A program made the translations under genes and the position numbers. This document shows positions 11,742 through 29,951 of a stretch of DNA of 37,369 nucleotides, piece by piece. Under the pieces are notes generated by a model. It saw only the letters and a list, made by a program, of their open reading frames with translations. It was not told the origin of the DNA and did not search any database. This DNA comes from Gemmatimonadota bacterium (GTDB taxonomy: Bacteria; Gemmatimonadota; Gemmatimonadetes; Longimicrobiales; RSA9), in the NCBI GenBank assembly GCA_039715185.1, contig JBDLIA010000027.1:1-37369 (forward strand). The letters run 5' to 3'. Every line of letters begins with the position of its first letter. The stretch's first letter is position 1.

Positions 11742-12835
11742 CGTCGTACGCGGACGGGGAACGATTTCGCCTGTTGCTTGGATCCGCCGCCTTCTTCCAG
11801 GCTTTTCAACGCGACGCGGCGGGCGCCGCGCGACGCGTGTGGGTGCAGACGCTGTCCTTCGAAGGTGACGCGGGCGAGGGGCTGACGGAGCTGTTCGAAT
11901 CCTGCGGCGCTCCGGATCGCCGGCTGATCGTCGACGACTTCAATCGCTGGACGCAGACCGATCGCTTCGTCGTGCTGCCCCACAACCTCCTCGATCCGGC
12001 GTTGCGCCGGCACGTCGCACGGACCCGCTCGTTGGAGGCGAGAATCCGGGCCTCCGGGGCCCAACTCAGATACGTGAACGACGCCGGGCTGCTCAAGCTC
12101 AGGGCCGCCTTCCGCAACCACAAGAAAATCCTCATCGTAGATGATCATGTGGCCTACGTCGGCGGCATCAACTTCAGCGATCACAACTTCGCCTGGCACG
12201 ACATGATGATCCGTATCGAGGACCCCGCCATCGTCGCGCTGCTCGTTCGTGACGTAGAGCGGACCTGGAACGGGCAGGACGTGGGCGTCAGCGAGAGCTT
12301 CCCGGGCATGGACATGATCCTGCTCGACGGCAACGACAACGGCCGCTGGTTCGACCCCGTGATGGCGATCCTGGAGCGCGCACGCCGCTCGATCCGCATT
12401 CAGAGCCCATACATCAGCATGCCGTTCACGGATGTGCTGGCGCGCGCCTCGGCCCGGGGCGTGGACGTGAGCATCATCGGCGCGGGGCAAACGAACCGCG
12501 AGTACCTCAATCGATACATCCGCTGGGAATCCTGGCGGCACGGCTTCGAGCTCCGCTTCATCCCCGAGATGACGCACATGAAGGCCATGGTGGTGGACGA
12601 CGAGGTGCTGATCGCCGGATCCGCCAATTTCGACCACCTGAGCTACCACGTGCTCCAGGAGGTCATCACGATCGTCCGCGACCCTGGCCTTGTGGCCGAC
12701 TTCGAGCGGCTGATCTGGCACCCGGACTACGCACGCGCGACCGCGCCCACGCTGGCCGATGATCCGGGCGGGGAGGCGCTCCGCCGGCGCATCGACCGCG
12801 TCTCTCGATTCCTGGTGATGGTGGGCGGCGGGTGA
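11738..12835 (+). CDS. Phospholipase D / cardiolipin synthase-like protein with two HKD motifs
   Basis: 365 aa; ATG 11738 overlaps the upstream stop (ATGA). Both HKD motifs are complete: HKKILIVD followed by YVGGINFSDHNFAWHD, and HMKAMVVD followed by IAGSANFDHLSYH. The two halves form the pseudo-dimeric active site of the PLD superfamily, where a His forms a phosphatidyl intermediate. Family members include cardiolipin synthases and phospholipases. This protein is shorter than ClsA/ClsB and lacks the N-terminal TM helices of ClsA. A cardiolipin-synthase-like transphosphatidylase is the leading idea, given the DedA-like neighbour. Downstream coupling to haem O synthase suggests the operon serves membrane respiratory complexes. 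Confidence 0.8.
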   Translation: MTSYADGERFRLLLGSAAFFQAFQRDAAGAARRVWVQTLSFEGDAGEGLTELFESCGAPDRRLIVDDFNRWTQTDRFVVLPHNLLDPALRRHVARTRSLEARIRASGAQLRYVNDAGLLKLRAAFRNHKKILIVDDHVAYVGGINFSDHNFAWHDMMIRIEDPAIVALLVRDVERTWNGQDVGVSESFPGMDMILLDGNDNGRWFDPVMAILERARRSIRIQSPYISMPFTDVLARASARGVDVSIIGAGQTNREYLNRYIRWESWRHGFELRFIPEMTHMKAMVVDDEVLIAGSANFDHLSYHVLQEVITIVRDPGLVADFERLIWHPDYARATAPTLADDPGGEALRRRIDRVSRFLVMVGGG

Positions 12836-13713
12836 GGGGCGCACGGAAGCTCCCCAGGGCGGCGGATCTGCTCGCGCTCACCAAGCCGGGCATCACGCGC
12901 ATGGTCCTGCTCACGTCGGGCGTGGGGTTCTTTCTGGGCAGCGGGGACCTGATCGACGCGCGTCGGCTGCTGCACGCGCTGATCGGCATCGCGCTCATCG
13001 CGTCCGGCTCCAACGCGCTCAATCAGGTGGTGGAACGCGACCCGGACGCGCGCATGCATCGAACGCGCGGGCGGCCGCTGCCCGCGGGCCGGCTGACCAC
13101 TCGCCAGGCCGCCATCTTCGCCGGCCTGGCTTCGGCGCTCGGCGTCGCGTACCTGGCCGTATTCGTCAACGGCGTGACCGCGGCCGTCGTGGCGGCGACG
13201 CTCCTCAGCTATATCCTGGTCTATACACCGCTCAAGCGGCTCACGAGCTTCAACACGCTGGTGGGCGCGATCCCCGGCGCGCTGCCCATCGTGGCGGGCT
13301 GGACCGCGGCCGGGGCGGCGCTGGATGTGCGCGCGCTGTCGCTGTTCGCGGTGCTCTACTTCTGGCAGATCCCACACTTTCTGGCGCTGGCCTACCTGTA
13401 CCGCGAGGATTACCTGCGCGGCGGCTTCGTGATGCTCGGACGGGACGACCCGCGCGGTGGCGCCACGGGCCGGCAGGCGGCGCTGTACGCGTTGGGACTC
13501 GTGCCGGTCGCGCTGCTGCCGTCGCTTTCCGGCGCAACGGGAAGCTTCTACTTCTTCGGCGCGCTCGCCGCCGGCTTGGTCTTTCTCGCCCTGACCTTGC
13601 CGCTGGCGTTTTTGCCCACGGCCACCTCCGCGCGCCGCGTCTTCTTCGGCTCGGTGATTCATCTGCCCGTGCTGCTCGTACTCATGGTCGCGGACCGCAC
13701 CTTCTGGCAGTGA
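12832..13713 (+). CDS. ctaB: Protoheme IX farnesyltransferase (haem O synthase)
   Basis: 293 aa; GTG 12832 overlaps the preceding stop (GTGA). A polytopic UbiA-superfamily protein of about eight or nine TM helices. The first Asp-rich prenyl-diphosphate motif is NQVVERDPDARMHRTRGRPL and the second conserved loop is YTPLKRLTSFNTLVGAIPGA, both characteristic of CtaB/CyoE. It transfers a farnesyl group to haem b, making haem O in the inner membrane, the precursor of haem A for aa3 oxidases. The partner oxidase is encoded 13 kb downstream (26365-29951). No CtaA (haem A synthase) is seen in this window, so conversion to haem A must be encoded elsewhere or the oxidase uses haem O. Confidence 0.93.
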   Translation: MRGARKLPRAADLLALTKPGITRMVLLTSGVGFFLGSGDLIDARRLLHALIGIALIASGSNALNQVVERDPDARMHRTRGRPLPAGRLTTRQAAIFAGLASALGVAYLAVFVNGVTAAVVAATLLSYILVYTPLKRLTSFNTLVGAIPGALPIVAGWTAAGAALDVRALSLFAVLYFWQIPHFLALAYLYREDYLRGGFVMLGRDDPRGGATGRQAALYALGLVPVALLPSLSGATGSFYFFGALAAGLVFLALTLPLAFLPTATSARRVFFGSVIHLPVLLVLMVADRTFWQ

Positions 13714-13985
13714 GCGACGACGTGTCGGACAACGGAGGAAGCGTGCGCGACATCGAAGAGCAGCAGGTGGGCGACCTCAGGATCAGGATCGACCGCGCCC
13801 TGTGCGTGGGATTCGAGGACTGCGTCGAGGACCGCCCCGCTCTCTTTCGACTGGACGACGACGGCATCTGCACCTTCGTTGACGACCCGGATGTCGCCGC
13901 CACCGACACCACGATCGCCACCTGCGAGGCGTGCCCTGTTGACGCCCTGGAGGTTTTCGACGCCGCGGGCCGCAAGATCGTCTGA
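13710..13985 (+). CDS. Single-cluster ferredoxin
   Basis: 91 aa; GTG 13710 overlaps the ctaB stop (GTGA). The cluster ligands are C32-x5-C38 and C75-P, the pattern of [3Fe-4S] ferredoxins, with extra cysteines C54 and C72 (TCEACP), so a [4Fe-4S] form cannot be excluded. IRIDRALCVGFEDC and ACPVDALEVFD follow the usual ferredoxin beta-alpha-beta layout. It is a small soluble electron carrier. Its place between haem O synthase and an Fe-S carrier ATPase suggests it supplies electrons to a cofactor-maturation step rather than to central metabolism; that is inference from gene order. Confidence 0.8.
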   Translation: MSDDVSDNGGSVRDIEEQQVGDLRIRIDRALCVGFEDCVEDRPALFRLDDDGICTFVDDPDVAATDTTIATCEACPVDALEVFDAAGRKIV

Positions 13986-13997
13986 ACCGGACGTGCC

Positions 13998-14882
13998 ATG
14001 ATCGAGCGCCGCATACGAACCTACGCCGAAGTGGCCCACGAAACGGGCTCGGGGATCCTGGAGCAAGTAGAGGCCCAGGGGGCCCGCCTGGCTAGACGCC
14101 TCGCCGACATCGAGCGGCTGGTGATAGTGGCGAGCGGCAAGGGCGGTGTCGGCAAGAGCCTGGTCGCAGCGAACCTGGCGGTGGCCCTGGCCCAGGAAGG
14201 CCTCGCGGTGGGCGCCGCCGACGCGGACCTGAACGGGCCCTCGCTCGGCCGCATGCTGGGGGTCACCGGCGCCAGGCTCGAGGTCGGCGAGGACGGGGTG
14301 GTGCCGGCTGTGGGCGCGGGCGGAGTCCGCGTGGTGTCGATGGATCTCCTGCTCGCCTCCGACGACGCCCCTCTGCGCTGGCGTGAGCCGGAGCAGGCGG
14401 GCTTCGCCTGGCAGAGCGTGCTGGAGACCGGCGCCCTGCGCGAATTCCTGTCCGACACGAACTGGGGCAAGCTGGACGCGCTCGTGGTGGACCTGCCTCC
14501 GGGCACCGACAAGCTCCAGCGCATGCTGCAGCTCGTCCCCGACCCCAGCGCCGTAGTCCTCGTGACGACTCCCACCGAGGTCACGCGCTTCGTGGTCGGC
14601 AAGTCCATCGCTCTGGTCAGGGAAGGTTGGGCGCGGCGCCTGGGGTTGGTGGCCAACATGGCGGGCCACCGCTGCGAACACTGCGACAAGGAGACGTCCA
14701 TCTTCGACCCCGAGCCGGCCATCGGCCTCGCCGAGGAGTCGGGCGTTCCCCTGTGGGCCCAGATCCCCTTCGATCCGGCGATCGCCGCCCACACGGACGC
14801 CGGCCGACCCATCGTGTCCGAGGCACCGGAATCGGAGGCCGCTCTAGCTTTCGTCGAACTCGCCCGCCGAGTGAGCGAATGA
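13998..14882 (+). CDS. Mrp/ApbC/NBP35-family P-loop ATPase (Fe-S cluster carrier)
   Basis: 294 aa, ATG 13998, 12 bases after the ferredoxin stop. It has the deviant Walker A motif GKGGVGKS (residues 47-54), a DADLNGPSLGRML switch I region, VDLPPGTDKLQRM as switch II/Walker B, and a CEHC pair (C226, C229) that in this family bridges an Fe-S cluster between subunits. It lacks the N-terminal DUF59 domain of longer Mrp proteins. A role in delivering Fe-S clusters to target apoproteins is likely. Its stop overlaps the start of the zinc-ribbon/PCP_red gene, so both are probably made together. An alternative is a dedicated maturation ATPase for the downstream respiratory complex. Confidence 0.87.
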   Translation: MIERRIRTYAEVAHETGSGILEQVEAQGARLARRLADIERLVIVASGKGGVGKSLVAANLAVALAQEGLAVGAADADLNGPSLGRMLGVTGARLEVGEDGVVPAVGAGGVRVVSMDLLLASDDAPLRWREPEQAGFAWQSVLETGALREFLSDTNWGKLDALVVDLPPGTDKLQRMLQLVPDPSAVVLVTTPTEVTRFVVGKSIALVREGWARRLGLVANMAGHRCEHCDKETSIFDPEPAIGLAEESGVPLWAQIPFDPAIAAHTDAGRPIVSEAPESEAALAFVELARRVSE

Positions 14883-15361
14883 AGTTCCTGTGCGTGGACT
14901 GCGACAGCGTCATGGACTTCGCGGAGCGTCAGCTTCCGGGAGACGGCACGATGGCGGCGGTGTTCCGGTGCGGACGCTGCGAGCGGGAGGTCGCCATGCT
15001 CACGAACCCCATGGAGACGCGCCTCGTGTCCGGGCTCGGCGTGAAGGTGGGGGGCAAGGCGATCCCCGATCAGCCCATGGAGCTCGTGCGCAGCAGCATG
15101 GCGGACGGCCGCGAGGACGCCTTCGTCGACCGGGACGGCCCCGCTGGCGGGAGCGATCCAGCCGGCGCCGAGCCGACACGGCGGCCCGGACCGGTCACCT
15201 GGAGCCCGCAGGCGCGCGAGCGACTGGAGAACGTGCCCTCGTTCGTGCGCGGCATGGTCAAGCGCATCTACACGGAGTGGGCCTGGGAGCAGGGCGTCGC
15301 GGAGATGACCCCCGAGATCATGGACCGCGCGCGCACGGAGTTGGGTCTGGAGGGGATGTGA
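14879..15361 (+). CDS. Zinc-ribbon protein with C-terminal PCP_red domain
   Basis: 160 aa; ATG 14879 overlaps the ATPase stop (ATGA). The N-terminus carries two CxxC pairs, CVDC (C5, C8) and CGRC (~31-34), forming a small zinc-ribbon or rubredoxin-like knuckle. After a Pro/Gly-rich linker, residues ~107-156 match the PCP_red domain: W-x-P-x-AR, NVPSFVRGMVKRI and the MTPEIMDRAR helix. PCP_red is named from the C-terminus of the dark-operative protochlorophyllide reductase B subunit, but it also occurs in non-photosynthetic proteins of unknown role. Two further copies lie in the genes at 16770 and 18943. No other chlorophyll gene is present here, so the domain probably serves another redox or assembly function. 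Confidence 0.82.
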   Translation: MKFLCVDCDSVMDFAERQLPGDGTMAAVFRCGRCEREVAMLTNPMETRLVSGLGVKVGGKAIPDQPMELVRSSMADGREDAFVDRDGPAGGSDPAGAEPTRRPGPVTWSPQARERLENVPSFVRGMVKRIYTEWAWEQGVAEMTPEIMDRARTELGLEGM

Positions 15362-15744
15362 GCGATCCGGCGTCCGCCCCTACGGCCCGGGACCGGAAGT
15401 TCCGCCAGGCGGCGATCGTCTACCTCCACGTGGGCGTCCTCTACGAGGCCGCGGTCGTGGCGCTGTGGAGGGCCGGCCTCGTGCCCGACCGCGGGCCGGT
15501 CGGGCTGTGGCTGCTGGTGGGCGCGCTCATCACCGGCGGCGTCACCTGGGCGCTGTGGCGGTACCGTAGCCCGTGGGTTCCGCGGGCCATCTGGGCGCTC
15601 CACGCGCTCAGGCTTCCGAGCGTGATAGGGGGCGCCTTCGGGCTGGATCAGACGACGACGCTCCCACGGGGGTTGTGGACCCTGGCGCTGATCGCCGTGC
15701 TGATCAACCTCGGTTTCCTGGCGCGCGCGGGGTGGGACCTCTGA
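15358..15744 (+). CDS. Small polytopic membrane protein
   Basis: 128 aa; GTG 15358 overlaps the preceding stop (GTGA), so it is the last member of the coupled chain. It has about four TM segments (AIVYLHVGVLYEAAVVALW; VGLWLLVGALITGGVTWALW; a helix before IGGAFGLDQ; LWTLALIAVLINLGFLA) and a short polar start. No family is recognised. The topology and operon position suggest an inner-membrane accessory to the upstream cofactor/lipid genes. It ends 19 bases before the convergent asparaginase-like gene. Confidence 0.65.
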   Translation: MSDPASAPTARDRKFRQAAIVYLHVGVLYEAAVVALWRAGLVPDRGPVGLWLLVGALITGGVTWALWRYRSPWVPRAIWALHALRLPSVIGGAFGLDQTTTLPRGLWTLALIAVLINLGFLARAGWDL

Positions 15745-15763
15745 GGCAGCTCGGCGGGGCCGC

Positions 15764-16297
15764 CTACATTTCCTCGAACACGCCCTTCTCGGCGTTCTTG
15801 CGCACGCGGTCCCAGGCGAAGAAGCGGCCGTTCATGGCCACGTAGGCTCCGGGCGCAAGCACCTGCGCGAAGGACAGCGCCGATCCCAGGTTGAACAGCC
15901 CGTCCGAGGAGCCGAACGCCCAGGGGATCATCGCCCCCGTCAGAACGACCGTCTTGTCCGGCGCGGCTTCGGCGATGACGCGCGCGGTATCGACCATCGT
16001 GTCCGTGCCGTGCGTGACCACCACATGCTTCTCCGGACAGTCCCGCACGGCGGCGGCGACCCGATTCCGATCCGAGTCGGTCATTTCGAGGCTGTCGATC
16101 ATCATCAGGGTCTCGACCGCCACGTCCAGCCGACTGCGCGCGCGCGCCAGCATGTCCGGCAGGTGCGTGCCCTTGAAGTAGAGCGCGCCCCGCAACTCGT
16201 CGTACTCCTTGTCGAAGGTCCCGCCGGTCACGAGCACCCGGACCGGCGGCGACCCATGGCCTGCGCCGCTCAAGCGTAGCTCCCGCTTCCCGTTCAC
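15764..16297 (-). CDS. Asparaginase-domain protein (short, N-terminal domain only)
   Basis: About 177 aa from GTG 16297; GTG 16333 is an alternative and neither has a strong ribosome site. The chain shows the asparaginase signatures: VLVTGGTFDKEYDEL with the nucleophile Thr, and VVVTHGTDTMVDTARV with the second catalytic Thr-Asp, then VVLTGAMIPWAFGSSDG. Normal type I/II asparaginases are ~330 aa with a second domain; here only the catalytic N-terminal half exists, ending after DRVRKNAEKGVFEEM. Short members of this kind are widespread and annotated as asparaginase-domain proteins; amidohydrolase activity is plausible. It is read opposite to both flanking operons and interrupts the two PCP_red gene groups. 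Confidence 0.8.
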   Translation of the reverse strand: MNGKRELRLSGAGHGSPPVRVLVTGGTFDKEYDELRGALYFKGTHLPDMLARARSRLDVAVETLMMIDSLEMTDSDRNRVAAAVRDCPEKHVVVTHGTDTMVDTARVIAEAAPDKTVVLTGAMIPWAFGSSDGLFNLGSALSFAQVLAPGAYVAMNGRFFAWDRVRKNAEKGVFEEM

Positions 16298-16448
16298 CCT
16301 GCATTCCGCGCCTCCGAGCGCGGACCAGGCCACAATCGCGCGCGTTGGACGGCGCGGTCAAGGTGCCGCAACCGGGCCCCCGGAAAACGCTTCCGAGCCC
16401 CCTCCGTTCGAGGTGAAAAACGGCGGTCCCGTGCCCGCGGCCCGCCAT

Positions 16449-16478
16449 TTGACACTCGGCCGCGACAGCGCCTATACT
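16449..16478 (+). promoter_or_regulatory. Sigma70-type promoter for the respiratory operon
   Basis: TTGACA at 16449-16454 (perfect -35) and TATACT at 16473-16478 (one mismatch from TATAAT) are 18 bases apart. In DNA this GC-rich such a pair is unlikely by chance. Transcription would start near 16485, giving a leader of about 285 bases before the ATG at 16770. It points toward the Usp-rSAM-CydA-like-cytochrome genes. Confidence 0.7.
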
Positions 16479-16596
16479 CGCGCCTTCAGTACGGCTATGT
16501 AGGTACCGGTAATCGGATTGCGCACGGCGGCCCGCCCGCCGTTCAGTCTAGAAGTTGGCGGCTCGAGAAGCTGCACGCGCCGTAGCGGCGACGAAC

Positions 16597-16674
16597 GATG
16601 CAGCGGTTGGCCACGGGGCTGACCGCTGCATCATCTGACAGGGTGGCACCTGCCGATGCGCCCCGAGGGGGCGC
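16597..16674 (+). promoter_or_regulatory. Structured 5' leader with two perfect stems
   Basis: GATGCAGCGGT (16597-16607) pairs perfectly with ACCGCTGCATC (16622-16632) around a 14-base loop. A second stem, GCGCCCC (16658-16664) with GGGGCGC (16668-16674), has a 3-base loop. Both lie in the leader downstream of the promoter at 16449. I do not recognise a known riboswitch class, and no T run follows either stem. It may be a cis-regulatory RNA for the operon. Confidence 0.45.
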
Positions 16675-16769
16675 CGAGGATTGGCGCGGAGAGCCGCGCC
16701 CGATTCGGTCCCATGCCACCTCGCCGCATGGCGTATACGTCCCAAGCGCGACGGAGATGCCGCAAGGCG

Positions 16770-18926
16770 ATGTCTGCCCTCTACCGAGAAGTCCTGGTAC
16801 CCGTAGACAATTCGCGAGAATCGGATATCGCGGTGGACCGCGCCATCGAGGTCTGCCGCAGCTCCGACGGCCGCATCACGGGTACTCACGTCTACGCCGC
16901 CCGGCTGCACGACGTGCGGTTTCGCCAGCTCGAGGTCGGCCTCCCCGCGCAGTTCCAGGAGCCGGCCGAGATCAAGCGGCAGCGCAAGATCCACGACAAG
17001 CTGATCGAGAAAGGGCTGCAGCTCATCTCGGACAGCTTCCTGGACCAGGTCGACGCGCGCTGCAAGGCGGCGGGCGTACCGCTCACCCGCCAGCTCCTGG
17101 AGGGTATCAACTACGAGGAGATCGCCAAGGAGGCGAACCGCGGCCAGGGTCGCCTTCCCTCCCTGATCGGCTTCGATCCGAACATCGCCGACAAGTACGA
17201 CGGCGGAGAGCGCGCACGTTCCGATGTGCTGATGGGCGCGGATGGCAAGCTGGTGGCCGAGGAGGAAGAGCAGGACGACAAGGTGGCCGGGTCCAGCGAG
17301 CGCGACTACGACCTGGTGGTCATGGGCGCGCACGGACTCGGCCGGCAGCACTTCAGCCAGCTCGGCGGGGTGGTCGGACGATCGCTGCGTGGCATCGAAA
17401 AAGACGTGCTGGTGGTGCGCGACGATCGCGCGCTGGAGGGCGGCTCGTTCATGGTCTGCGTGGACGGCTCCGCGTACGGCTACAAGGGCATGAGGGTGGC
17501 GCTCGAGCTCGCCCGCCTGTACGGCGCCAAGCTGTACGTGTGCAGCGCGTTCGACGTGGAATACCACCACGTGGTCTTCAACAACATCAAGGACGTGCTG
17601 TCCGTCCAAGCGTCCAAGGTCTTCAAGTTCGAGGAGCAGGAAGAGCTCCACAACAACATCATCGACAAGGGCCTGCTCAGGCTCTGCCAGGCCAACGTCA
17701 GGCGCGCCCAGGTGATGGCCGAGGAGTACCCCGACGTCGAGGTCGAGACCCAGATCCTGATCGGCAAGCCGTTCCAGGTCGTGCTGCAGTGGGCGGAGGA
17801 GGTGGAGCCGTCGTTGCTGGTTCTGGCCCGCCATGGCTCGCACCGGATCGACGGCACGGAGCTGGGCTCGCAGGCGGAAAACCTGGTGCGCCTCGCCCCC
17901 ACCAACGTGCTCCTCATCGGCACCACGGACGTGCGGCCCGAGGAAATCCCCTGGATCGAAGAGGACGGCGAAAAGGGGCTCGAGTGGGCTCCCGAGGCGG
18001 AGGTCAGGATCCTTCGGGTGCCGCCCTTCGCGCTCGGCATCGCGCGCAAGGCGGTGGAGGAATTCGTCCTGGAGCACCACGGCCCGGGCAGCATCTACGC
18101 CGCGGCGTTCGTCGACGAAGGCTTCGGCAAGCTGGCCGCGGACAACGGCAGCGGCGCCATCGCCAACGGTCACGACATCCCCATGCAGGTCACGGCCGGG
18201 CCGCATGGCCCCGTGGCCGCGCCGTCGAAGGAGGACCTGCCCGTCGTCACCGGCGAGCGATTGGACGAGGCGATTCGCAAGCTGCTGCCCACGCACATGC
18301 AGCTCATCATGGGCATCGGCACGGCGGAGGAGCTGGCGCTCGCCGAGGTCAAGGCCGAGCAGGCCATGAAGCGGACGGTCGTCGAAGGACACGACGCGGA
18401 CGGCCTGGACGAGGCGCCGCCGGTCGAGGCCAAGTGCCCCTACACCGGCGCCATCCAGCAGCGCCAGCGCGACGAGCGCGACGCCATCGTGTGGACCGCC
18501 GAAGCCTTCGGGCGGCTGCGTCAGGTGCCGCTCATCGCCCGGCCGCTGGCCCGCAACACGGTGGAGAAGTTCGCCCGCGGGCACGGCCACTGGCGCGTTA
18601 CCACGCCCATCATGGACGATAACAAGCAGGCCATGATCGAGGCGGACGAATTCGACCTGGACACCATGCTGGTGATGTTCAAGGAGCTGCAGACCAAGCA
18701 GCTCAAGGCGGCGGCCGAGGGCGTGGACGGGCTCAGCGAGGAGATGCGCGCGTTCATCGAAGAGGCCAAGGCGAGCGGCGTCACGCGCTGCCCGATCCGG
18801 GACATCGAGGCGCAGGCCGACAAGTGCCCGGTGGATTTCAAGTTGGCGTCGCCGGAGGAAGCCAGGCGCGCGATGGAGATGTTCGTGACTGAGGGGGGCG
18901 GGGTGGAAGAAGGGGAAAAGGCTTGA
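16770..18926 (+). CDS. Tandem universal-stress-domain protein with PCP_red domain
   Basis: 718 aa; ATG 16770 with AAGG close upstream. Usp domain 1 (~1-215) opens with YREVLVPVDNSRESD and contains a long charged insert before VVMGAHGLGRQ and a GRSLRG-type ATP-binding loop. Usp domain 2 (~225-390) has MVCVDGSAYGYKGM, VLARHGSHRIDG and NVLLIG. Residues ~390-570 are unrecognised. Residues ~573-623 match PCP_red (W-x-x-EAFGRLRQVPLIARPLA, then the VTTPIMDDNK helix), and a Cys-containing tail follows (CPIRDI, DKCPVDF). The best guess is a cytoplasmic nucleotide-binding sensor or assembly factor. It is 13 bases from the radical SAM gene that carries the same domain. Usp plus PCP_red in one chain is unusual; its function is unknown. 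Confidence 0.8.
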   Translation: MSALYREVLVPVDNSRESDIAVDRAIEVCRSSDGRITGTHVYAARLHDVRFRQLEVGLPAQFQEPAEIKRQRKIHDKLIEKGLQLISDSFLDQVDARCKAAGVPLTRQLLEGINYEEIAKEANRGQGRLPSLIGFDPNIADKYDGGERARSDVLMGADGKLVAEEEEQDDKVAGSSERDYDLVVMGAHGLGRQHFSQLGGVVGRSLRGIEKDVLVVRDDRALEGGSFMVCVDGSAYGYKGMRVALELARLYGAKLYVCSAFDVEYHHVVFNNIKDVLSVQASKVFKFEEQEELHNNIIDKGLLRLCQANVRRAQVMAEEYPDVEVETQILIGKPFQVVLQWAEEVEPSLLVLARHGSHRIDGTELGSQAENLVRLAPTNVLLIGTTDVRPEEIPWIEEDGEKGLEWAPEAEVRILRVPPFALGIARKAVEEFVLEHHGPGSIYAAAFVDEGFGKLAADNGSGAIANGHDIPMQVTAGPHGPVAAPSKEDLPVVTGERLDEAIRKLLPTHMQLIMGIGTAEELALAEVKAEQAMKRTVVEGHDADGLDEAPPVEAKCPYTGAIQQRQRDERDAIVWTAEAFGRLRQVPLIARPLARNTVEKFARGHGHWRVTTPIMDDNKQAMIEADEFDLDTMLVMFKELQTKQLKAAAEGVDGLSEEMRAFIEEAKASGVTRCPIRDIEAQADKCPVDFKLASPEEARRAMEMFVTEGGGVEEGEKA

Positions 18927-18942
18927 GCCCTATCCCGGCGTG

Positions 18943-20334
18943 ATGGGACGTCTCCCCGTGCTGGACCTCCCCACCGGGAGAGACACCGGCTCAGACGGAC
19001 TGCTTCCCTGGACCGGGCAGAGCGTCGCGTCCGCGCCGGAGGCCCATGCGCGGCGGGCGGGGCACCTTCCGCACGTCGTCGCCTGGAATCTCACCCGCCG
19101 CTGCAACCTCGCCTGCTCTCACTGCTACATCGCCGCCGGCTCCTGGCATACCGAAGACGCGGAGCTGGACACCGCCGAGGTGTTCCGCATCACCGACGAG
19201 ATCCTCGCGGTGAACCCGGCTCCGATGTTCGTGCTGAGCGGCGGCGAGCCGCTGCTGCGGCCCGACCTGGAGGACATCGCCCGGCAGGCGGCGCGCGGCG
19301 GCGCCACGGTCGTCGTGGGCACCAACGGCACGCTGCTGACCGAGGAGCGCATCGCGGGGCTCAAGGACGCGGGCGTGCGCGGGGTGGCGATCAGCGTGGA
19401 CTCGCTCGACGCCCGTTACCACGACCGCTTCCGGCACGGAGGTGGGGCGCTGGAGGACACGCTCGCCGCCGTAGGACGGCTGCGCGAGGCCGAGCTGGAC
19501 TTCATCGTCCAGACCTCGCTGACCGCCGGCAATCGCGCAGAGATCGGCCGGATCGCGCAGTGGGCCGCCGACGCGGGGGCGGTGAGCTTCAACCTGTACT
19601 TCCTGGTGGCGACCGGGCGCGGCGAGCGCATGCGCGGCCTCACCCCGGAGGAGAACGAGGCCGTCCTGCTGGACGTGGTCGAGCTGGAGCGGCGCTACCG
19701 CGGGCGCATGATGGTCCGCACCAAGTGCCAGCCCCAGCTCATGCGACACGTGACGGAGGGTGACCCCGACTCCCCGCTGCTGGGCTACGAGACGCGCTGC
19801 CCGTGCGGGATCCACTACTGCCGCATCACGCCGGAAGGGAAGCTCACCCCCTGCCCGTACGCGCCCGTGGTAGCGGGAGACCTGCGCTCCGAGTCGTTCG
19901 CCGACGTGTGGTTCGGGTCGCCGGCGCTCAACGCGCTGCGCGGGGGCGAGCTCGGCGGTAAGTGCGGCGCCTGCGAGTACCGGCGGGTGTGCGGCGGCTG
20001 CCGCGCCCGGGCGCTTGCGGACACGGGCGACCTGCTCGGTGCCGACGAATCGTGCGCCTACGAGCCCACGGGCGAGGCGGCGGTCGTGGAGCCCGAGCGC
20101 ACGATCACCTACGGGGCGTCGTTCGAGGGCGAGCTGCCCTGGGATGAGGACGCGCGAGAGCGCATCGCGCGCGCCCCCAGCTTCGTGCGCGGCGTGGTGT
20201 CGCAGAGGGTCGAATCTTTCGCGCGCGCGCGTGGCCACACGCGCGTGACCACCGAAGTCATGGACGAGGTGCGACGGTCTATGCCCGTGGATTTCTCGAA
20301 GCGGATGCCCTTCTTCATGAGGGGGGACCGATGA
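18943..20334 (+). CDS. Radical SAM/SPASM protein with C-terminal PCP_red domain
   Basis: 463 aa from ATG 18943 (GTG 18940 just before it is possible). The radical SAM cluster motif is CNLACSHC (C54, C58, C61) in the context NLTRRCNLACSHCYI. LSGGEPLLRPDL and GTNGTLL follow as expected. A SPASM-type auxiliary-cluster region is present: RCPCGIHYCRITPEGKLTPC (~285-304) and CGACEYRRVCGGCRA (~341-355). Residues ~399-446 are PCP_red (DEDARERIARAPSFVRGVV, then VTTEVMDEVR). It resembles the NirJ/PqqE-like group that modifies haem or peptides. Its stop overlaps the start of the CydA-like gene, so a role in maturing that complex or its haem is attractive but unproven. Confidence 0.87.
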   Translation: MGRLPVLDLPTGRDTGSDGLLPWTGQSVASAPEAHARRAGHLPHVVAWNLTRRCNLACSHCYIAAGSWHTEDAELDTAEVFRITDEILAVNPAPMFVLSGGEPLLRPDLEDIARQAARGGATVVVGTNGTLLTEERIAGLKDAGVRGVAISVDSLDARYHDRFRHGGGALEDTLAAVGRLREAELDFIVQTSLTAGNRAEIGRIAQWAADAGAVSFNLYFLVATGRGERMRGLTPEENEAVLLDVVELERRYRGRMMVRTKCQPQLMRHVTEGDPDSPLLGYETRCPCGIHYCRITPEGKLTPCPYAPVVAGDLRSESFADVWFGSPALNALRGGELGGKCGACEYRRVCGGCRARALADTGDLLGADESCAYEPTGEAAVVEPERTITYGASFEGELPWDEDARERIARAPSFVRGVVSQRVESFARARGHTRVTTEVMDEVRRSMPVDFSKRMPFFMRGDR

Positions 20335-22148
20335 TCCGAGGCGGTGGCAGGTGGCGTGGCTGGGCGGCGCTGCTCGGGGCTATGGCGCTGGTGGCGGTCG
20401 GGGTCGCGCTGGCCGAACCGGCCTGGGCCCAGACGGCCGCGCCTGCGGGCCGCGAGTACGGCGATTTCCCCATCGTCGGCGGCCGCATCGTGGTCTGGGT
20501 ATCCGCTCAGATCCACCTGATGTTCGCTGCCTTCGTGCTGGGCGTGCCGATGTTCGCCGTGGTCGCCGAAGCCATAGGCATGTTCGGCGGCGAGAAGCGC
20601 TACGACAGGCTGGCCAAGGAGTTCACGCGGCTGCTGCTGATCGCCTACAGCGCCACCGCCATCTGGGGCGCCATCCTGAGCTTCGCGCTGGTCATCATCT
20701 ACCCGCGCTTCTGGACCCACATGATGGAGATCTTCGAGATCTCCGTGTGGTTCTACCTGGGCCTGTTCTTCCTCGAGTCGTTCACGCTGTACCTGTATTA
20801 CTACGGCTGGGAGCGTTGGAGCACCGGGCGCGCGAAGATGGCGCACTGGGGCATGGGCATCCTGCTCAATGTGTGGGGCACCGCGGTGATGTTCATCGCC
20901 GACTCATGGCTGAGCTACATGATGAGCCCCGCCGAGGGCGTCACGGCGGACACGCCGCCGGGCGACATCGGCGTGTGGTCGGCCATCGTCAACCCCACCT
21001 GGATGCCGATCAACATCCACCGGATCATCGCGAACGTGGTGTTCGGCGGCGCCATCGTCGGCGCCTACGCAGCCTTCCGCTTCCTGAACGCCAGCACCGA
21101 CGAGGAGCGCGCGCACTACGACTGGATGGGCTACGTCGGCAACATCATCGCCATCGGCGCGCTGATCATCCTGCCGTTCGCCGGCTACTACCTGGGGCGC
21201 GAGATCTACGAGTACAACCAGCAGATGGGCATCACCATGATGGGTGGGTTCATGAGCTGGCTGTGGATCATCCAGGCGTTCCTGATCGGCGTGCTGTTCC
21301 TGGCGGGCAACTACTACCTGTGGGTGGGCATGCAGCGCATCCCGGGCGCCGAACGCTTCGCGCCCTACACCAAGTGGATGCTGCTCGTGCTGGTGCTGGG
21401 GGTGATCGTGTGGGCGACGCCGCACACCATGATCGCGAGCCGCTCCGAGCTCGCCGCGATGGGCGGGAGCCACCACCCGTTCCTGGGCGTGCTGGGGGTC
21501 ATGAGCGCCAAGAACACGGCGGTCAACCTCATGATCTTGACCACGTTCTTGTCGTTTCTTCTCTACCGCCGCGCCAACAAGACTCCCGTCGTCCCGTGGG
21601 CGAAGACGGGCACCAGGGTGCAGGGCATGGTGTTCCTGGTGTCATCGGCGGTCGTGCTCTTCTACGGGATCTACGGCTACTTCGTCCCCGCGGTGCAGCG
21701 CATCGGTTTCAGCGTCTACCAGGTCCTGGCGGTCTTGATCACGATCGTGGTGGTGGTGGCCATCGACTTCGCGATGGGCAGGGGCGCCGAGTCGCGGGGA
21801 GCGATCCGCTGGGGCCAGATGCCGCCACGTTCGCAGTACGCCCTGTTCGTGCTGGCCGTGACCTTCACGTGGCTCATGGGGCTCATGGGCTTCGCGCGCA
21901 GCGGCATACGCCAGCACTGGCACATCTGGGAGGTGATGCGCGACACGAGCGAGTGGGCCGCCACCCCGGCGCTCGGCTTCGCCGCCCAGGTGATCACCGC
22001 CTGCGTGCTGATCTTCCTGGGGCTGATCGGGTTCATCTTCTGGCTCGGAGGGCTGGTGGAGAAGCCCGTCCTGGCCGACGTGCGCGCCGACGCTGGCGGT
22101 GCCGTGGCGCTCGCCGGCGCCAACGCCGATCCCGCGCGGGGGCAGTGA
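20331..22148 (+). CDS. CydA-like (cytochrome bd subunit I superfamily) membrane haem protein, no CydB partner
   Basis: 605 aa; ATG 20331 overlaps the radical SAM stop (ATGA). An N-terminal signal-like segment ending PAWAQ is absent from classical CydA. The CydA core follows: AQIHLMFAAFVLGVPMF with H62 (like E. coli H19), FFLES with E149 (like E107), and INIHRIIANVVFGG with H230 (like H186); the spacings of 87 and 168 residues mirror E. coli (88 and 167). By hand alignment the E99 position is Phe141, the quinol-loop Lys/Glu segment is missing, and no GRQPW motif is found. Additional TM helices extend the C-terminus. No cydB follows; three cytochromes c do. It may be an O2 reductase of a divergent bd type, or a quinol or cytochrome c electron-transfer subunit. 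Confidence 0.85.
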   Translation: MIRGGGRWRGWAALLGAMALVAVGVALAEPAWAQTAAPAGREYGDFPIVGGRIVVWVSAQIHLMFAAFVLGVPMFAVVAEAIGMFGGEKRYDRLAKEFTRLLLIAYSATAIWGAILSFALVIIYPRFWTHMMEIFEISVWFYLGLFFLESFTLYLYYYGWERWSTGRAKMAHWGMGILLNVWGTAVMFIADSWLSYMMSPAEGVTADTPPGDIGVWSAIVNPTWMPINIHRIIANVVFGGAIVGAYAAFRFLNASTDEERAHYDWMGYVGNIIAIGALIILPFAGYYLGREIYEYNQQMGITMMGGFMSWLWIIQAFLIGVLFLAGNYYLWVGMQRIPGAERFAPYTKWMLLVLVLGVIVWATPHTMIASRSELAAMGGSHHPFLGVLGVMSAKNTAVNLMILTTFLSFLLYRRANKTPVVPWAKTGTRVQGMVFLVSSAVVLFYGIYGYFVPAVQRIGFSVYQVLAVLITIVVVVAIDFAMGRGAESRGAIRWGQMPPRSQYALFVLAVTFTWLMGLMGFARSGIRQHWHIWEVMRDTSEWAATPALGFAAQVITACVLIFLGLIGFIFWLGGLVEKPVLADVRADAGGAVALAGANADPARGQ

Positions 22149-22155
22149 GGCGACC

Positions 22156-22971
22156 ATGCTGCTGACCAACCTGAAGATCCTGGCCGTCATTCTGGGGACC
22201 GTTACGCTCTACACGGTGCTCGCCTCGGCCATCCCGCAGATAGAGTCGGAGGTCCCTCAGGAACTCACGCTGGGCGCGGACTTTTCCGCCGAAGAGCTGG
22301 TCGCGGCGGGCGAGGATCTGTACCAGGGCGCGGGCGGCTGCGTGGCCTGTCACGGCCTGGGGACGCGGGCGCCCAACCTGCTGACCGACCACGCCGGAAC
22401 GGGACTGATCGGCGCGCGCTGTGCCGCCCGCGAGACCGGCAAGGACTGCAAGACCTACCTGCACGAGGCGCTCGTCCAGCCGCTGGCCTACGTGGTGGAG
22501 GGTTTCGGGCCGATCATGCCGGACATGAGCCGCACGCTGTCGGACGCGCAGATATGGGCGTTGGTGGCGTACCTGGAGAGCCTGGGCGGCACGGTGGACG
22601 TGACGGCCGACGACGTCGGCGCCGGCGCGGACCCCGCAGGCGAGGCGGCCGACGCGCCGAACGGAGCCGCCGCGGCGGCGGGCGGCGGCGCGATCGCGGG
22701 AGGAAGTACGGACGCAACGGAGATCTGGGCGGCGGCGGGCTGCGGCGCGTGTCACCAGCTCGGCGGCGAGGGGGGCGCGGTCGGCCCCGCGCTGGACGGC
22801 CTGGGCGCCACGCGGGATCGCGCCTACATCCGCCGCGCGATCCTGGACCCGGCGGCCGATCTGGCGCCCGGCTTCGAGGCGCTGGGCGGGATGATGCCGG
22901 CGGCGTTCGGCCAGTCGCTGTCGGCGGCGCAACTCGAGGCGCTCGTGGACCTGCTCGCGGAAGAGGGCTGA
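22156..22971 (+). CDS. Membrane-anchored diheme cytochrome c
   Basis: 271 aa; ATG 22156, GTGAGG close upstream, 7 bases after the CydA-like stop. An uncleaved N-terminal TM (LKILAVILGTVTLYTVLASAI) anchors two class I cytochrome c domains. The first haem site is CVACH (C62-H66) with axial Met expected near IMPDMSRTL; the second is CGACH (C196-H200) with a likely Met in GGMMPAAF. An Ala/Gly-rich linker of about 50 residues joins the domains. It faces the periplasm and should accept or pass electrons next to the CydA-like protein. Tight spacing with both neighbours argues for a stable complex. Substrate and direction of electron flow are inferred. Confidence 0.87.
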   Translation: MLLTNLKILAVILGTVTLYTVLASAIPQIESEVPQELTLGADFSAEELVAAGEDLYQGAGGCVACHGLGTRAPNLLTDHAGTGLIGARCAARETGKDCKTYLHEALVQPLAYVVEGFGPIMPDMSRTLSDAQIWALVAYLESLGGTVDVTADDVGAGADPAGEAADAPNGAAAAAGGGAIAGGSTDATEIWAAAGCGACHQLGGEGGAVGPALDGLGATRDRAYIRRAILDPAADLAPGFEALGGMMPAAFGQSLSAAQLEALVDLLAEEG

Positions 22972-22972
22972 C

Positions 22973-23767
22973 ATGCGCTACCTGAAGCACCCGCTCGGCG
23001 CGGCGGTCGCGATCATGGTCGGCTCCTACCTGCTGATCGACTTCGGCATCGTCTACATCCCGCCGCTACTGGGGATGGACAGCGCGCCCGTGCCCAACAG
23101 CGTGGTGCTGCAGTACCTCGCGACCGTGTTCGCCGGCGTGCTGATCCTGGCCAGCTGGAACGACGAGCGCTGGGCGGAGTTCAAGCGGCCGTTCCAGGAG
23201 ACCATGGTGCTGCCCGAGCGGCGCACGTTGCGCTCGATCCTGATGGTGGCGCTGCCGCTGCTGATCGGGCTGTTCGTCTTCCTGCAGGTGCGGCCCACGG
23301 TCGCGGCGCCGTCCACGCTGCGGTCCATCCACCCCGCGCCGCCCTCGCAGATCGACTTCCGGGGCCGGACCATGGTGCTCGCCGGCCTGAACAATCCCCT
23401 GCGGGCCGACGGGTCGATCTCCGAGGACTACGAGGAAGGGAAGCGGGTCTACTACCAGAACTGCCTGCCGTGCCACGGCGACGCGCTGGCGGGCGACGGC
23501 CACTACGCGCGCGGCTTCAACCCCGCGCCGCTGTCGTTCGACGACGTGGGCACCATCGCCCAGCTCACCGAGAGCTTCGTGTTCTGGCGCGTCGCCAAGG
23601 GGGGCCCGGGGCTGCCGGTCGAGGGCACGCCGTGGCACTCCGCGATGCCGGTCTGGGAGGACTTCCTGACCGAGGATGAGATCTGGTCGGTGATCGTCTT
23701 CATGTACGAGCAGGCGGGCCACTCGCCGCGCACGTGGGAAGAAGACGAGGAAGGGGGCGAGCACTGA
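22973..23767 (+). CDS. Membrane-anchored monoheme cytochrome c
   Basis: 264 aa; ATG 22973 is one base past the previous stop. Three N-terminal hydrophobic segments (VAIMVGSYLLIDFGIVYI; YLATVFAGVLILASW; ILMVALPLLIGLFVFLQV) precede a periplasmic cytochrome c domain with one CxxCH, CLPCH (C164-H168), in the form YYQNCLPCHGDALAGDG, and a candidate axial Met in HSAMPVWEDFL. The layout, a multi-span anchor plus one haem c, resembles accessory subunits of alternative oxidase complexes. It shares its last base with the next start (TGATG), so translation is coupled. It is probably an integral subunit of the CydA-like complex. Confidence 0.85.
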   Translation: MRYLKHPLGAAVAIMVGSYLLIDFGIVYIPPLLGMDSAPVPNSVVLQYLATVFAGVLILASWNDERWAEFKRPFQETMVLPERRTLRSILMVALPLLIGLFVFLQVRPTVAAPSTLRSIHPAPPSQIDFRGRTMVLAGLNNPLRADGSISEDYEEGKRVYYQNCLPCHGDALAGDGHYARGFNPAPLSFDDVGTIAQLTESFVFWRVAKGGPGLPVEGTPWHSAMPVWEDFLTEDEIWSVIVFMYEQAGHSPRTWEEDEEGGEH

Positions 23768-25341
23768 TGCGCGCCTTCGTCTCCTCCGCCGGGCTGGTCG
23801 CGGCGGCCATCGCGCTGGCCGCCCCGCTGGCCGCCCAGGACGCCGAGCACCCCGGCAAGGCGCCCTACGACAAGTGGTGCTCCGGCTGCCACGGCGTCGA
23901 GGGCGACGGCCAGGGCTACGGCACCGAGTACATGCTGCCGCGACCCCGGGACTTCACGCAGGCCCTCTACCAGATCCGGACGACCGAGAGCGGCGGCCTG
24001 CCCACCGACGCGGACATCCTCGCGGTCATCGACGACGGCATGCCGGGCACCGCCATGCCGGGTTGGCGCGAACGCCTCACGCGGGACGAGCGCGACGCCC
24101 TGGTCGACTACCTGAAGACCTTTTCGCGCTTCTTCGAGACCGAGGGCACGCCCCAGGCGCTGGACCTCGGGCGACCGTTGGGCGGCGGAGCCGACGGCAT
24201 CGCCGCGGGCCGCGAGGTCTTCGAGCGGGTCGAGTGCTGGAAGTGCCACGGCGATGCGGGCCGCGGCGACGGCACCTCGGCGCCGGACATGACCGACGAC
24301 AACGACGATCCCATTCGCCCCGCCGACCTGAGCGAGCCGTGGATGTTCAACGGCGGCGGCACCGTCGAGGACATCTATCGGCGCCTGCGCACCGGCTTGG
24401 ACGGCACGCCCATGCCGTCCTCGAGCGATCTGATCACCTCGGGCGTCGCCAGCGAAGAGGAACTCTGGAATCTGGCGCATTACGTCCGCAGCCTGGGTCC
24501 CGAGACCTTCCCGGAGCCCGCCGAGGTCATCCGCGCGGACCTCGCCGAGGGCGCGCTTCCGGATTCGCCGGGCGACGCTGAGTGGGCCGGCTACGAGCGC
24601 TTCTGGGTGCCGCTGGTCGGCCAGATCCTGGTGGCGCCGCGCTGGTTCGCGCCGTCGGTGGACGGCGTCTGGGTGCAGGCCGCGCACGACGGCCGGGAGC
24701 TCGCTCTCAGGCTATCCTGGCACGATCCCTCCCAGAGCCCGGACTCCATCTGGGACGCGTGGCGGCAGCTGGTCGAAGCGAGCATGCGGCCCGTCGAGGG
24801 AGAGCCCGCCGGCCCGGATCTGCCGGACGCCTTGTCGGTACAGTTCCCGGCGGTCATGCCGGACGGGCGCGAGCTGCCCTTTTTCCTGGGTGGCGATAGC
24901 CGTCGGCCGGCCTACACCTGGCTATGGAACGCCGCGGACGGCGTCTCGGAGGCGTTCGGCAGGGGGCTCGCCGACACCGAGTCGCTGGGCGCGGGCGACG
25001 TGTCCGCGCAGGCCGAGTTCGACGACGGCGAGTGGCGCTTGGTCATGCGCCGGACGCTGGACGCCGGCGACGATGATCGGCGCCTGAGCTTCGTCACGGG
25101 CGAAGCCATCCCGGTCGCGTTCCGCGTCTGGGACGGCAACAACGGCGAGGCCGGCACGCGCGGCTCGATCAGTTCCTGGTACTATGTTCACCTGACGGAG
25201 CCAACGCCCGCGTCGACCTACGCCTATCCGGTGATCGCCGCGGTCCTGTCCGCCCTGCTGGGTCTGCTCATCGTGCGGCGCGCGCAGAGCGCGAGCGCGA
25301 CGAGCGAGGACGCGCACCCGGCGCCGGCGGGCGCCGTTTGA
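23767..25341 (+). CDS. Diheme cytochrome c fused to an ethylbenzene-dehydrogenase-type haem b domain
   Basis: 524 aa; ATG 23767 overlaps the previous stop by one base. A cleavable signal (LVAAAIALAAPLAAQ) is followed by two haem c sites, CSGCH (C38-H42) and CWKCH (C157-H161), each in a class I-like fold with PGTAMPGW and DGTPMPSS Met loops. Residues ~270-490 match the EB_dh/NxrC-like haem-binding beta domain (WVPLVGQILVAPRWFAP, ALRLSWHDPS, AYTWLWNA, VAFRVWDGNNGE). A C-terminal TM (YPVIAAVLSALLGLLIV) anchors it, facing the periplasm. The domain normally belongs to gamma subunits of molybdenum enzymes, but no such catalytic subunit is encoded nearby. It likely relays electrons between the CydA-like complex and the Cox enzyme. 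Confidence 0.87.
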   Translation: MRAFVSSAGLVAAAIALAAPLAAQDAEHPGKAPYDKWCSGCHGVEGDGQGYGTEYMLPRPRDFTQALYQIRTTESGGLPTDADILAVIDDGMPGTAMPGWRERLTRDERDALVDYLKTFSRFFETEGTPQALDLGRPLGGGADGIAAGREVFERVECWKCHGDAGRGDGTSAPDMTDDNDDPIRPADLSEPWMFNGGGTVEDIYRRLRTGLDGTPMPSSSDLITSGVASEEELWNLAHYVRSLGPETFPEPAEVIRADLAEGALPDSPGDAEWAGYERFWVPLVGQILVAPRWFAPSVDGVWVQAAHDGRELALRLSWHDPSQSPDSIWDAWRQLVEASMRPVEGEPAGPDLPDALSVQFPAVMPDGRELPFFLGGDSRRPAYTWLWNAADGVSEAFGRGLADTESLGAGDVSAQAEFDDGEWRLVMRRTLDAGDDDRRLSFVTGEAIPVAFRVWDGNNGEAGTRGSISSWYYVHLTEPTPASTYAYPVIAAVLSALLGLLIVRRAQSASATSEDAHPAPAGAV

Positions 25342-25404
25342 AACCAGCGCCGCCCCCCTTCTGGGGGCCGGCGTGTCAGTCACACAGCGATGGAGAATCG
25401 GCAC

Positions 25405-26271
25405 ATGAGGAAGTCTTTCGATCCGTTCAGGGTCATGGCGCTCGCGGGCGCCTCTGGGTTCCTGCTGGCCTGCGGAGGAGGCGACGCGGGCTCCGGCGGA
25501 GCGGCGAGCGACGACGGCGGAGATGACGCGGCGGCGTCCGCCCCCGCGGTGGACCCGGCGACGACCGGCGCCGTGGTCGGCACCATCACGTTCACCGGCG
25601 CTGTCCCCGCTCCCGAGATGATCGACATGAGCGACGAGCCGGTCTGCAACGACAAGCACGGCGGCCAGCCCATGCGCTCCCCGGTGAAGGCGGGCGACGG
25701 CGGCGGGCTGGCCGAGGTCTTCGTCTACATCAAGGAGGGCCTGGCCGAGCAGGACTGGGGCGCCGCCGGAGCCATGGCGACCCTCGACCAGAACGGCTGC
25801 GAGTACGTGCCGCACGTGCTGGGCCTGCGCACCGGTCAGGACCTGGAGATCGTCAACAGCGACGGCCTGCTCCACAACATCAACGCGAGCCCCGAGGCCA
25901 ACCGCGGCTTCAACATCAGCCAGCCGACCAACATGACCTCCACACGCAGCTTCTCGCAGCCCGAGATCATGATCCCGCTGCGCTGTGACGTGCACGGCTG
26001 GATGGAGGCGTACGTGGCGGTCATGGAGCACCCCTTCTTCGCGGTGAGCGCCGAGGACGGCACCTACCGCATCGAGGGGCTGCCGGCGGGCGATTACACC
26101 ATCGCCATCTGGCACGAGACATTGGGCGAGCGGGAGATGGTGGTGAACGTCGCGGCGCAGGCCGAGGCGACGGCCGACTTCAGCGTGGACGAGTCGCTGG
26201 CCGGCACCGCCCGCATGGGCCATCCGGTCGCGATGCACGATGCGCACGCCGGAGGCGCGGCCGCGCGCTGA
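25405..26271 (+). CDS. Lipoprotein with cupredoxin-like copper ligand set and regulatory-type beta domain
   Basis: 288 aa; ATG 25405 is preferred over ATG 25390 because GGAG lies nine bases upstream of it. The lipobox is SGFLLAC, followed by a Gly/Asp/Ala-rich linker. The central domain has GQDLEIVNSDGLLHNI and PLRCDVHGWMEAYV; H157, C194, H197 and M200 form an H...CxxHxxM set like a type 1 copper site, though shorter than the plastocyanin CxxHxxxxM loop. The C-terminal part (YRIEGLPAGDYTIAIWHE) resembles carboxypeptidase-regulatory beta sandwiches. Lipid-anchored in the periplasm beside the Cox genes, it could carry electrons or deliver copper to CuA. Related proteins are mostly uncharacterised. 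Confidence 0.78.
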   Translation: MRKSFDPFRVMALAGASGFLLACGGGDAGSGGAASDDGGDDAAASAPAVDPATTGAVVGTITFTGAVPAPEMIDMSDEPVCNDKHGGQPMRSPVKAGDGGGLAEVFVYIKEGLAEQDWGAAGAMATLDQNGCEYVPHVLGLRTGQDLEIVNSDGLLHNINASPEANRGFNISQPTNMTSTRSFSQPEIMIPLRCDVHGWMEAYVAVMEHPFFAVSAEDGTYRIEGLPAGDYTIAIWHETLGEREMVVNVAAQAEATADFSVDESLAGTARMGHPVAMHDAHAGGAAAR

Positions 26272-29663: not shown

Positions 29664-29951
29664 ATGGAACACGCGGCAGCGCACACGGGCGGAGCGAGCA
29701 TCAAGGCCTACATGGTCGTATTCGGCACGCTGGCGGTCCTGACGGTGATCGAGGTGCTGATCCCGTTGCGTTTCGGCTTTCCCAAGAACGTGCAGGTCAT
29801 CCTTCTGGTCTTCCTGGCGCTCTGGAAGGCCCTGCTCGTGGCGCTCTACTACATGCACCTGCGCTACGAGCCGCAGCGCCTGAAGTGGATGGTCATCGCG
29901 CCGCTGCCGCTGGCGGTGATCCTGGTGATGGCCGTCCTCACCGAGTTTTAG
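29664..29951 (+). CDS. coxD: Cytochrome c oxidase subunit IV (bacterial)
   Basis: 95 aa; ATG 29664 with GAGGAGG just upstream. A short protein of three TM helices (YMVVFGTLAVLTVIEVLI; VILLVFLALWKALLVALYYM; WMVIAPLPLAVILVMAVL), matching the prokaryotic CoxD/COX4_pro pattern, with the characteristic KALLVALYYMHLRYE motif. This subunit is usually structural, supporting oxidase assembly. It ends three bases before a 53-aa gene. Confidence 0.88.
   Translation: MEHAAAHTGGASIKAYMVVFGTLAVLTVIEVLIPLRFGFPKNVQVILLVFLALWKALLVALYYMHLRYEPQRLKWMVIAPLPLAVILVMAVLTEF

Follow-up and report, generated by a model that had tools for sequence, protein, structure and literature searches.

Why should a respiratory gene cluster encode three unlike proteins that share a domain with an enzyme of chlorophyll synthesis? 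We addressed this question in a 37,369-nucleotide stretch from a Gemmatimonadota bacterium (assembly GCA_039715185.1, contig JBDLIA010000027.1, positions 1 to 37,369; hereafter the window), where a zinc-ribbon protein, a tandem universal stress protein (Usp) and a radical SAM/SPASM protein each carry a PCP_red domain (PF08369) next to the gene for a CydA-like membrane subunit. The three PCP_red proteins, a ferredoxin and a second Mrp-type Fe-S ATPase belong to a single conserved module, which accompanies the CydA-like gene and three cytochrome genes. We consider it very likely that the module serves the CydA-like complex, and probable that it is a maturation module; that its chemistry concerns a tetrapyrrole has, in our judgement, an even chance.

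PCP_red proteins and their gene run

The preliminary description recognized PCP_red in the three proteins from short motifs, and Pfam profile searches agree: all three pass the PF08369 gathering cut-off of 32.5 bits. The zinc-ribbon protein (ZnR-PCP, 14879..15361; genes are on the + strand unless noted) scores 44.1 bits (E 2e-11, residues 108-152). The tandem Usp protein (Usp-PCP, 16770..18926; Usp 105.8 bits) scores 52.5 bits over two stretches (E 5e-14, best stretch residues 575-618), and the radical SAM/SPASM protein of the NirJ/AhbD type (rSAM-PCP, 18943..20334) scores 55.0 bits (E 8e-15, residues 400-444). The genes are open reading frames at the positions first assigned to them, and the coordinates, frames and motifs given for them are correct. 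Beside PCP_red, Pfam detected a zinc-ribbon-like domain (a weak match), Usp, and Radical_SAM/SPASM, respectively, and the nitrogenase component-1 type domain of BchB is missing from all three. The DPOR_BchB model matches only the PCP_red part of the zinc-ribbon and Usp proteins (33.0 and 34.7 bits) and does not reach its equivalog cut-off of 490.

When all 3.66 Mb of the genome were searched in six frames, only four PCP_red stretches emerged, every one inside the window: C-terminal domains in ZnR-PCP (15200-15334) and rSAM-PCP (20140-20274), and two matches in Usp-PCP, PCP-1 (17985-18074, an incomplete match) and PCP-2 (18492-18623). The genome having no further PCP_red, it encodes no BchB; the original remark that chlorophyll genes are lacking thus holds for BchB, BchN and BchL not having been searched for separately. 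Among 14 named control genomes, Synechococcus gave the sole PF08369 match.

The module is larger than first described. It begins with a ferredoxin of the Fer4_19 type (13710..13985; PF06902, 32.1 bits), which has 53 matches in the fetched loci; judged by their coordinates, most of these adjoin Mrp or ZnR-PCP. An Mrp/NUBPL-type P-loop ATPase, a putative Fe-S carrier, follows (13998..14882; PF10609, 225 bits against a cut-off of 27.1), with scores under the ApbC and MrpORP equivalog cut-offs. A stronger Mrp (334 bits) is encoded elsewhere in the genome, so the window copy is a second paralog, and the stronger one is presumably the housekeeping protein. These two upstream genes, the second PCP_red domain of the Usp protein and the NirJ/AhbD affinity of the radical SAM protein all go beyond the preliminary description.

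Downstream of rSAM-PCP lie the CydA-like membrane subunit (605 aa, 20331..22148), a diheme cytochrome c with an N-terminal membrane anchor (22156..22971; PF00034/PF13442 in two stretches), a membrane-anchored monoheme cytochrome c (22973..23767; PF13442), and a fusion of a diheme cytochrome c and an EB_dh/NxrC-like heme-b domain that has a membrane helix at its C-terminus (23767..25341; PF00034 twice, PF09459 69 bits). The last also matches TIGR03477, the DMSO reductase type II heme b subunit, with 91 bits. The start and stop codons of neighbouring genes overlap by 4 bases at Mrp/ZnR-PCP, at rSAM-PCP/CydA-like and at the junction of ZnR-PCP with a small membrane protein (15358..15744), which has no Pfam or NCBIfam family and adjoins Mrp/ZnR-PCP in many loci.

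Co-occurrence and distribution

The module follows the CydA-like gene through the phylum. Of 61 close relatives, 17 have a CydA-like ortholog, and all 17 have PCP_red above the cut-off. Where contigs allow, they keep the gene order Mrp, ZnR-PCP, Usp-PCP, rSAM-PCP, CydA-like, three cytochrome genes, cytochrome c oxidase (COX) genes. We extended this to 298 Gemmatimonadota genomes, with the genome lists transcribed by hand; most genomes in the analysis are metagenome assemblies. At least three PCP_red domains were found in 76 of the 79 genomes with a CydA-like gene (one, G284, counted on a contig-edge fragment) and in 2 of the 219 without it (Fisher p ~1e-64, not corrected for shared ancestry, the counts not being phylogenetically independent). 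The association with the CydA-like gene, on which the preliminary description had built its proposal, is therefore conserved.

The exceptions are few. Two genomes with the CydA-like gene, G091 and G281, have two PCP_red domains each, and in G281 Usp-PCP and rSAM-PCP adjoin CydA-like; the CydA-like gene of the remaining exception, G260, is cut by the end of its contig. The two genomes with at least three domains and no CydA-like gene are G247 and G075, the latter with a divergent copy on a 9.6-kb contig. Mrp, ZnR-PCP and Usp-PCP occur on a 4.4-kb contig without CydA-like in G009, and G185 has divergent forms of both rSAM-PCP and ZnR-PCP.

In a scan of named genomes, for which taxon names are those of the depositors, CydA-like relatives were also identified in NC10/Methylomirabilota, Rokubacteria, Myxococcota, Chloroflexi, SAR324 and Calditrichia, as well as in Thermoanaerobaculia/Holophagales/Acidobacteria, an acidimicrobial bin and Bacteroidota. 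PCP_red was present in all 26 named CydA-like genomes tested, mostly from phyla other than Gemmatimonadota, and the gene set is conserved across about ten bacterial phyla. In NC10 the module precedes CydA-like; in Calditrichia, SAR324 and Bacteroidota it follows the cytochromes, and in Rokubacteria it lies past COX1-CtaB-COX3. Its genes are on the CydA-like strand in 60 of the 60 loci that have them in the fetched flank. This linkage survives rearranged gene order, which argues for a shared function.

Two PCP_red domains occur in 69 of 81 related Usp reading frames, and three to five in some. In the window protein, the second half of PCP-1 (LPVVTGERLDEAIRKLL), read by eye, probably resumes at ~18237-18290 after a variable insertion, so that this protein too would hold two domains. 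By eye, its first Usp motif departs from the ATP-binding consensus GxxGx9G[ST], and a long conserved insertion lies within the first Usp domain. Usp-PCP has three Cys-Pro motifs in most loci, chiefly those of Gemmatimonadota (58 of 81 frames, the window included); most Usp-PCP proteins of more distant phyla lack them, and a CPF motif is often present in ZnR-PCP there. We considered the Cys-Pro motifs as heme-regulatory motifs and dropped them as evidence, given their absence from most other phyla.

PCP_red was also seen on other scaffolds. A fourth, a protein of ~250 residues fused to PCP_red, occurs near the same cluster in SAR324 and Myxococcota, and in Bacteroidota a protein judged similar by eye, without PCP_red and with a weak PNPOx (split-barrel) match, is found near the same cluster (L121:16276-17202, L153:7444-8355 and L130:16095-16871 for this set). 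Standalone proteins with two to four PCP_red domains and a helical-looking region are encoded in Rokubacteria, an unclassified bin and Myxococcota (L149:6498-7295, L151:8126-8704, L143:2360-3733). In several Gemmatimonadota, an ABC-2 type transporter pair lies between ZnR-PCP and Usp-PCP (L034:13429-15122, L043:13987-15659, L045:13055-14700). We rejected a CcmAB-like heme exporter for these pairs, which consist of a general ABC-2 membrane protein and a DrrA-type ATPase and not CcmB.

The window encodes further genes around this run. A CtaB-like protoheme IX farnesyltransferase (12832..13713), assigned from translation and synteny, precedes the ferredoxin and is found near COX genes in many other loci. 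Beyond the cytochromes are a secreted protein with a carboxypeptidase-regulatory-like C-terminus (25390..26271; PF13620, 26.1 bits, below the cut-off), kept in the cluster by synteny, and, assigned from translation and synteny, cytochrome c oxidase subunits II (26365..27156), I (27163..28938) and III (28949..29581) and a subunit IV-like protein (29664..29951). An asparaginase-like gene on the - strand (15764-16333) splits the Mrp/ZnR-PCP part of the run from Usp-PCP; it was not seen in the mapped related loci.

A candidate role in cofactor maturation

The best NCBIfam models of rSAM-PCP are NirJ2 (267.5 bits) and the heme b synthase AhbD (258.1 bits), with PqqE at 117.1 bits. The same two models rank highest, with up to 359 bits, in eight more rSAM-PCP proteins, of which one is from Gemmatimonadota (L133) and the others are from other phyla. 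All 45 aligned sequences contain the motifs CX3CX2C and C-terminal CX2CX5CX20C, and CX2CX5CX20-21C is the C-terminal motif of AhbD, NirJ and AhbC (PMC12505453, PMC3942049). The motif is supporting and not diagnostic, because CX2CX5C alone is common to SPASM proteins. Within PCP_red, P412, F414 and R416 (P-x-F-x-R) are invariant across the 45 sequences, and an AlphaFold model of the protein (pLDDT 86.7, pTM 0.86) predicts this part as three helices (402-409, 413-429 and 437-446). Elsewhere in the genome, a second radical SAM protein matches the AhbD type strongly, in two segments of 224 and 90 bits (G000:C6:15721-16806), and this region has no PCP_red match.

The preliminary description had suggested a common docking or redox-maturation step for the CydA-like complex. 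Shared service to that complex is well supported by the co-occurrence, co-travel and overlapping genes; as to the step itself, which we can only infer, the evidence leans more specifically towards cofactor maturation, because heme-making enzymes are the closest match of the radical SAM core and a tetrapyrrole reductase is the source of PCP_red. We tentatively propose, at slightly under even chances, a cytoplasmic maturation module that would handle or modify a tetrapyrrole for the CydA-like complex, in which PCP_red would be the domain held in common for tetrapyrrole handling or docking. In this scheme, the radical SAM enzyme, rich in Fe-S clusters, would be kept active by the ferredoxin as electron donor and by Mrp, which would load those clusters into it. 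The PCP_red domains would bind or present a heme or heme precursor, whose side chains the enzyme would then alter, and Usp-PCP and ZnR-PCP might carry the tetrapyrrole or gate its insertion into the CydA-like subunit. In this way PCP_red would keep a tetrapyrrole-related role like that presumed in BchB, and would be common to the three proteins because all handle the same tetrapyrrole, which ends in the CydA-like subunit. We regard as doubtful the more specific possibility that a modified heme, with new side-chain chemistry, is made or installed by the module and needed only by the CydA-like complex, PCP_red being a portable tetrapyrrole-handling domain. The least certain steps are the tetrapyrrole as substrate at all and the kind of modification; contact between PCP_red and a tetrapyrrole is suggested by analogy, from the presence of the domain in BchB.

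Several observations weigh against a role in tetrapyrrole maturation. We found no residue-level evidence for tetrapyrrole binding by isolated PCP_red, and the Cys-Pro motifs of the Usp protein are limited to some lineages. The window rSAM-PCP and its eight relatives fall short of the 500 bits required by both the NirJ2 and the AhbD model; as rSAM-PCP is under every NCBIfam equivalog cut-off, it may have abandoned tetrapyrrole chemistry. The solved folds nearest to its model are the peptide and PQQ maturases SkfB, PqqE and SuiB, and also anSME. NirJ and AhbD chains were not among the matches listed in a PDB sequence search, so the fold comparison cannot settle the substrate. Finally, the window encodes a HemQ-type protein of the chlorite dismutase family (1019-1855; PF06778, 185 bits) for heme b by the coproporphyrin-dependent route, and no basic heme step is evidently missing. 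With HemQ present, we rejected basic heme synthesis as the main role of rSAM-PCP, and the module is probably not a general heme pathway.

The main alternative, close to the idea of the preliminary description, is that PCP_red is a docking domain only, which would gather Mrp, the radical SAM enzyme and the Usp scaffold on a single assembly platform for insertion of Fe-S or other cofactors without touching a tetrapyrrole. It draws on the adjacency of Mrp and ferredoxin to PCP_red genes in many loci, on the repetition of PCP_red two to five times in Usp proteins, as is frequent in scaffold domains, and on BchL, the partner ATPase of the dark-operative protochlorophyllide oxidoreductase (DPOR), a P-loop relative of Mrp with a weak shared Walker region. 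The interaction is putative, however, and docking leaves unexplained both the heme-synthase type radical SAM core and the recurrence of the domain in another tetrapyrrole enzyme; we consider this explanation unlikely.

The nearest solved folds, together with the SPASM-type cysteine set, which is present and invariant in the rSAM-PCP proteins, could also indicate a peptide maturase, with a residue in the CydA-like subunit or in a cytochrome as its target and PCP_red for recognition. We judge this improbable, since the NirJ2 and AhbD models lead the PqqE, mycofactocin and peptide-maturase models by >100 bits in 9 of 9 proteins. No gene for a small precursor peptide was seen beside the radical SAM gene, although no systematic search for one was made.

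Usp and Mrp families also occur widely outside such clusters, as would suit a general stress or redox operon that merely adjoins the respiratory genes; this explanation is strongly disfavoured by the near one-to-one co-occurrence with the CydA-like gene, by the linkage kept despite rearrangement, and by the stronger Mrp encoded elsewhere. A relic of lost photosynthesis, in which the PCP_red proteins are left from a bacteriochlorophyll pathway and to which high-scoring PCP_red in BchB-sized reading frames in some genomes of the phylum might point, is refuted by distribution: the proteins are strongly conserved in about ten phyla without the nitrogenase-like domain of BchB, and the module and a high-scoring BchB-type match mostly do not occur in the same genome.

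The CydA-like complex and known systems

The CydA Pfam model (PF01654) matches the CydA-like subunit with 76 bits and only over the first 246 of its 418 positions (profile 3-246). Canonical residues carry E. coli CydA numbers, and the roles given are those in cytochrome bd. H62 and H230 are invariant in 20 relatives and align with the canonical heme-ligand histidines H19 and H186. Compared with canonical CydA of related genomes, the equivalents of H19, E107 and H186 are kept and that of E99 is lost. The equivalents of K252 and E257 in the quinol site are lost, QPxKxAAME being replaced by QxxGITMMGG. The heme b595 ligand E445 also has no equivalent (the Glu of VTEVGRQPW is absent, and RQPW becomes RQHWH), in a C-terminal half where the alignment is uncertain. 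A structure model of the subunit (pLDDT 55) was too poor for use.

The CydA-like gene, two cytochromes c and the NxrC-like diheme protein at 20331-25341 fit the description of an OR-N/bd-like_3 cluster; OR-N was reportedly defined by Murali et al. in 2021. The Nitrospira cluster comprises bd-like_3, two cytochromes c and alt_NxrC_2, and is common to Nitrospina and anammox bacteria (PMC6606698). Related CydAA' enzymes of the OR-N type are thought to use cytochrome c, their composition being unproven (PMC10839748, PMC12342949), and a search of these papers turned up no reference to protochlorophyllide, universal stress or radical SAM genes. Most genomes with the CydA-like gene have no strong match to cytochrome b of bc1. 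We considered the complex as a substitute for complex III, which is unnecessary: ActD of alternative complex III is present in 60 of the 61 relatives, with or without the CydA-like gene. Some genomes have two CydA-like/cytochrome clusters, side by side or paralogous (L161 of G260, L111, L121), resembling the bd-like_3/bd-like_4 duplication in Nitrospira (PMC6606698).

A central place in energy metabolism is ascribed to the bd-like complexes of nitrite-oxidizing and anammox bacteria, but their composition and function are described as unproven (PMC6606698, PMC10839748). A co-inherited maturation module would offer testable candidates for complex assembly and predicts an unusual heme or assembly step. 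If a modified heme is indeed made or installed for this complex alone, the genes represent an undescribed heme-maturation pathway for a respiratory complex of roughly ten phyla that resembles those of nitrite oxidizers and anammox bacteria. The module would also give PCP_red a role outside chlorophyll synthesis. In the openly licensed literature we found no paper that describes the module, links PCP_red to such complexes or reports PF08369 outside photosynthesis. A recent survey lists PF08369 with the Pfams most prevalent in phototrophs (PMC12815261), yet about a quarter of the surveyed Gemmatimonadota genomes have it through the respiratory module rather than photosynthesis; as a phototrophy marker it would be confounded by this module.

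Like BchB/ChlB of DPOR, the source of PF08369 (PDB matches 2xdq, 2ynm and 3aek), the module proteins rSAM-PCP and ZnR-PCP have a C-terminal PCP_red, and, by analogy, a ferredoxin and a P-loop Fe-S ATPase are nearby; unlike BchB/ChlB, the module proteins have no nitrogenase-like domain, other scaffolds and no photosynthesis context. NirJ, AhbC and AhbD are the best-scoring families of rSAM-PCP and share its CX3CX2C and CX2CX5CX20C motifs, whereas rSAM-PCP has extra conserved cysteines, an appended PCP_red and scores under the equivalog cut-offs, and the window contains no evident nir or ahb cluster. The window Mrp has the NUBPL-type P-loop ATPase domain in common with Mrp/ApbC and differs as a divergent second copy tied to the module. 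With the bd-like_3/OR-N clusters the locus shares a CydA-like gene, behind which come two membrane-bound cytochromes c and an NxrC/EB_dh-like diheme protein that has a membrane helix, as well as the loss of quinol residues expected of a cytochrome c-linked enzyme. Unlike those clusters, it forms a single cluster here with the PCP_red module and an aa3-type oxidase operon.

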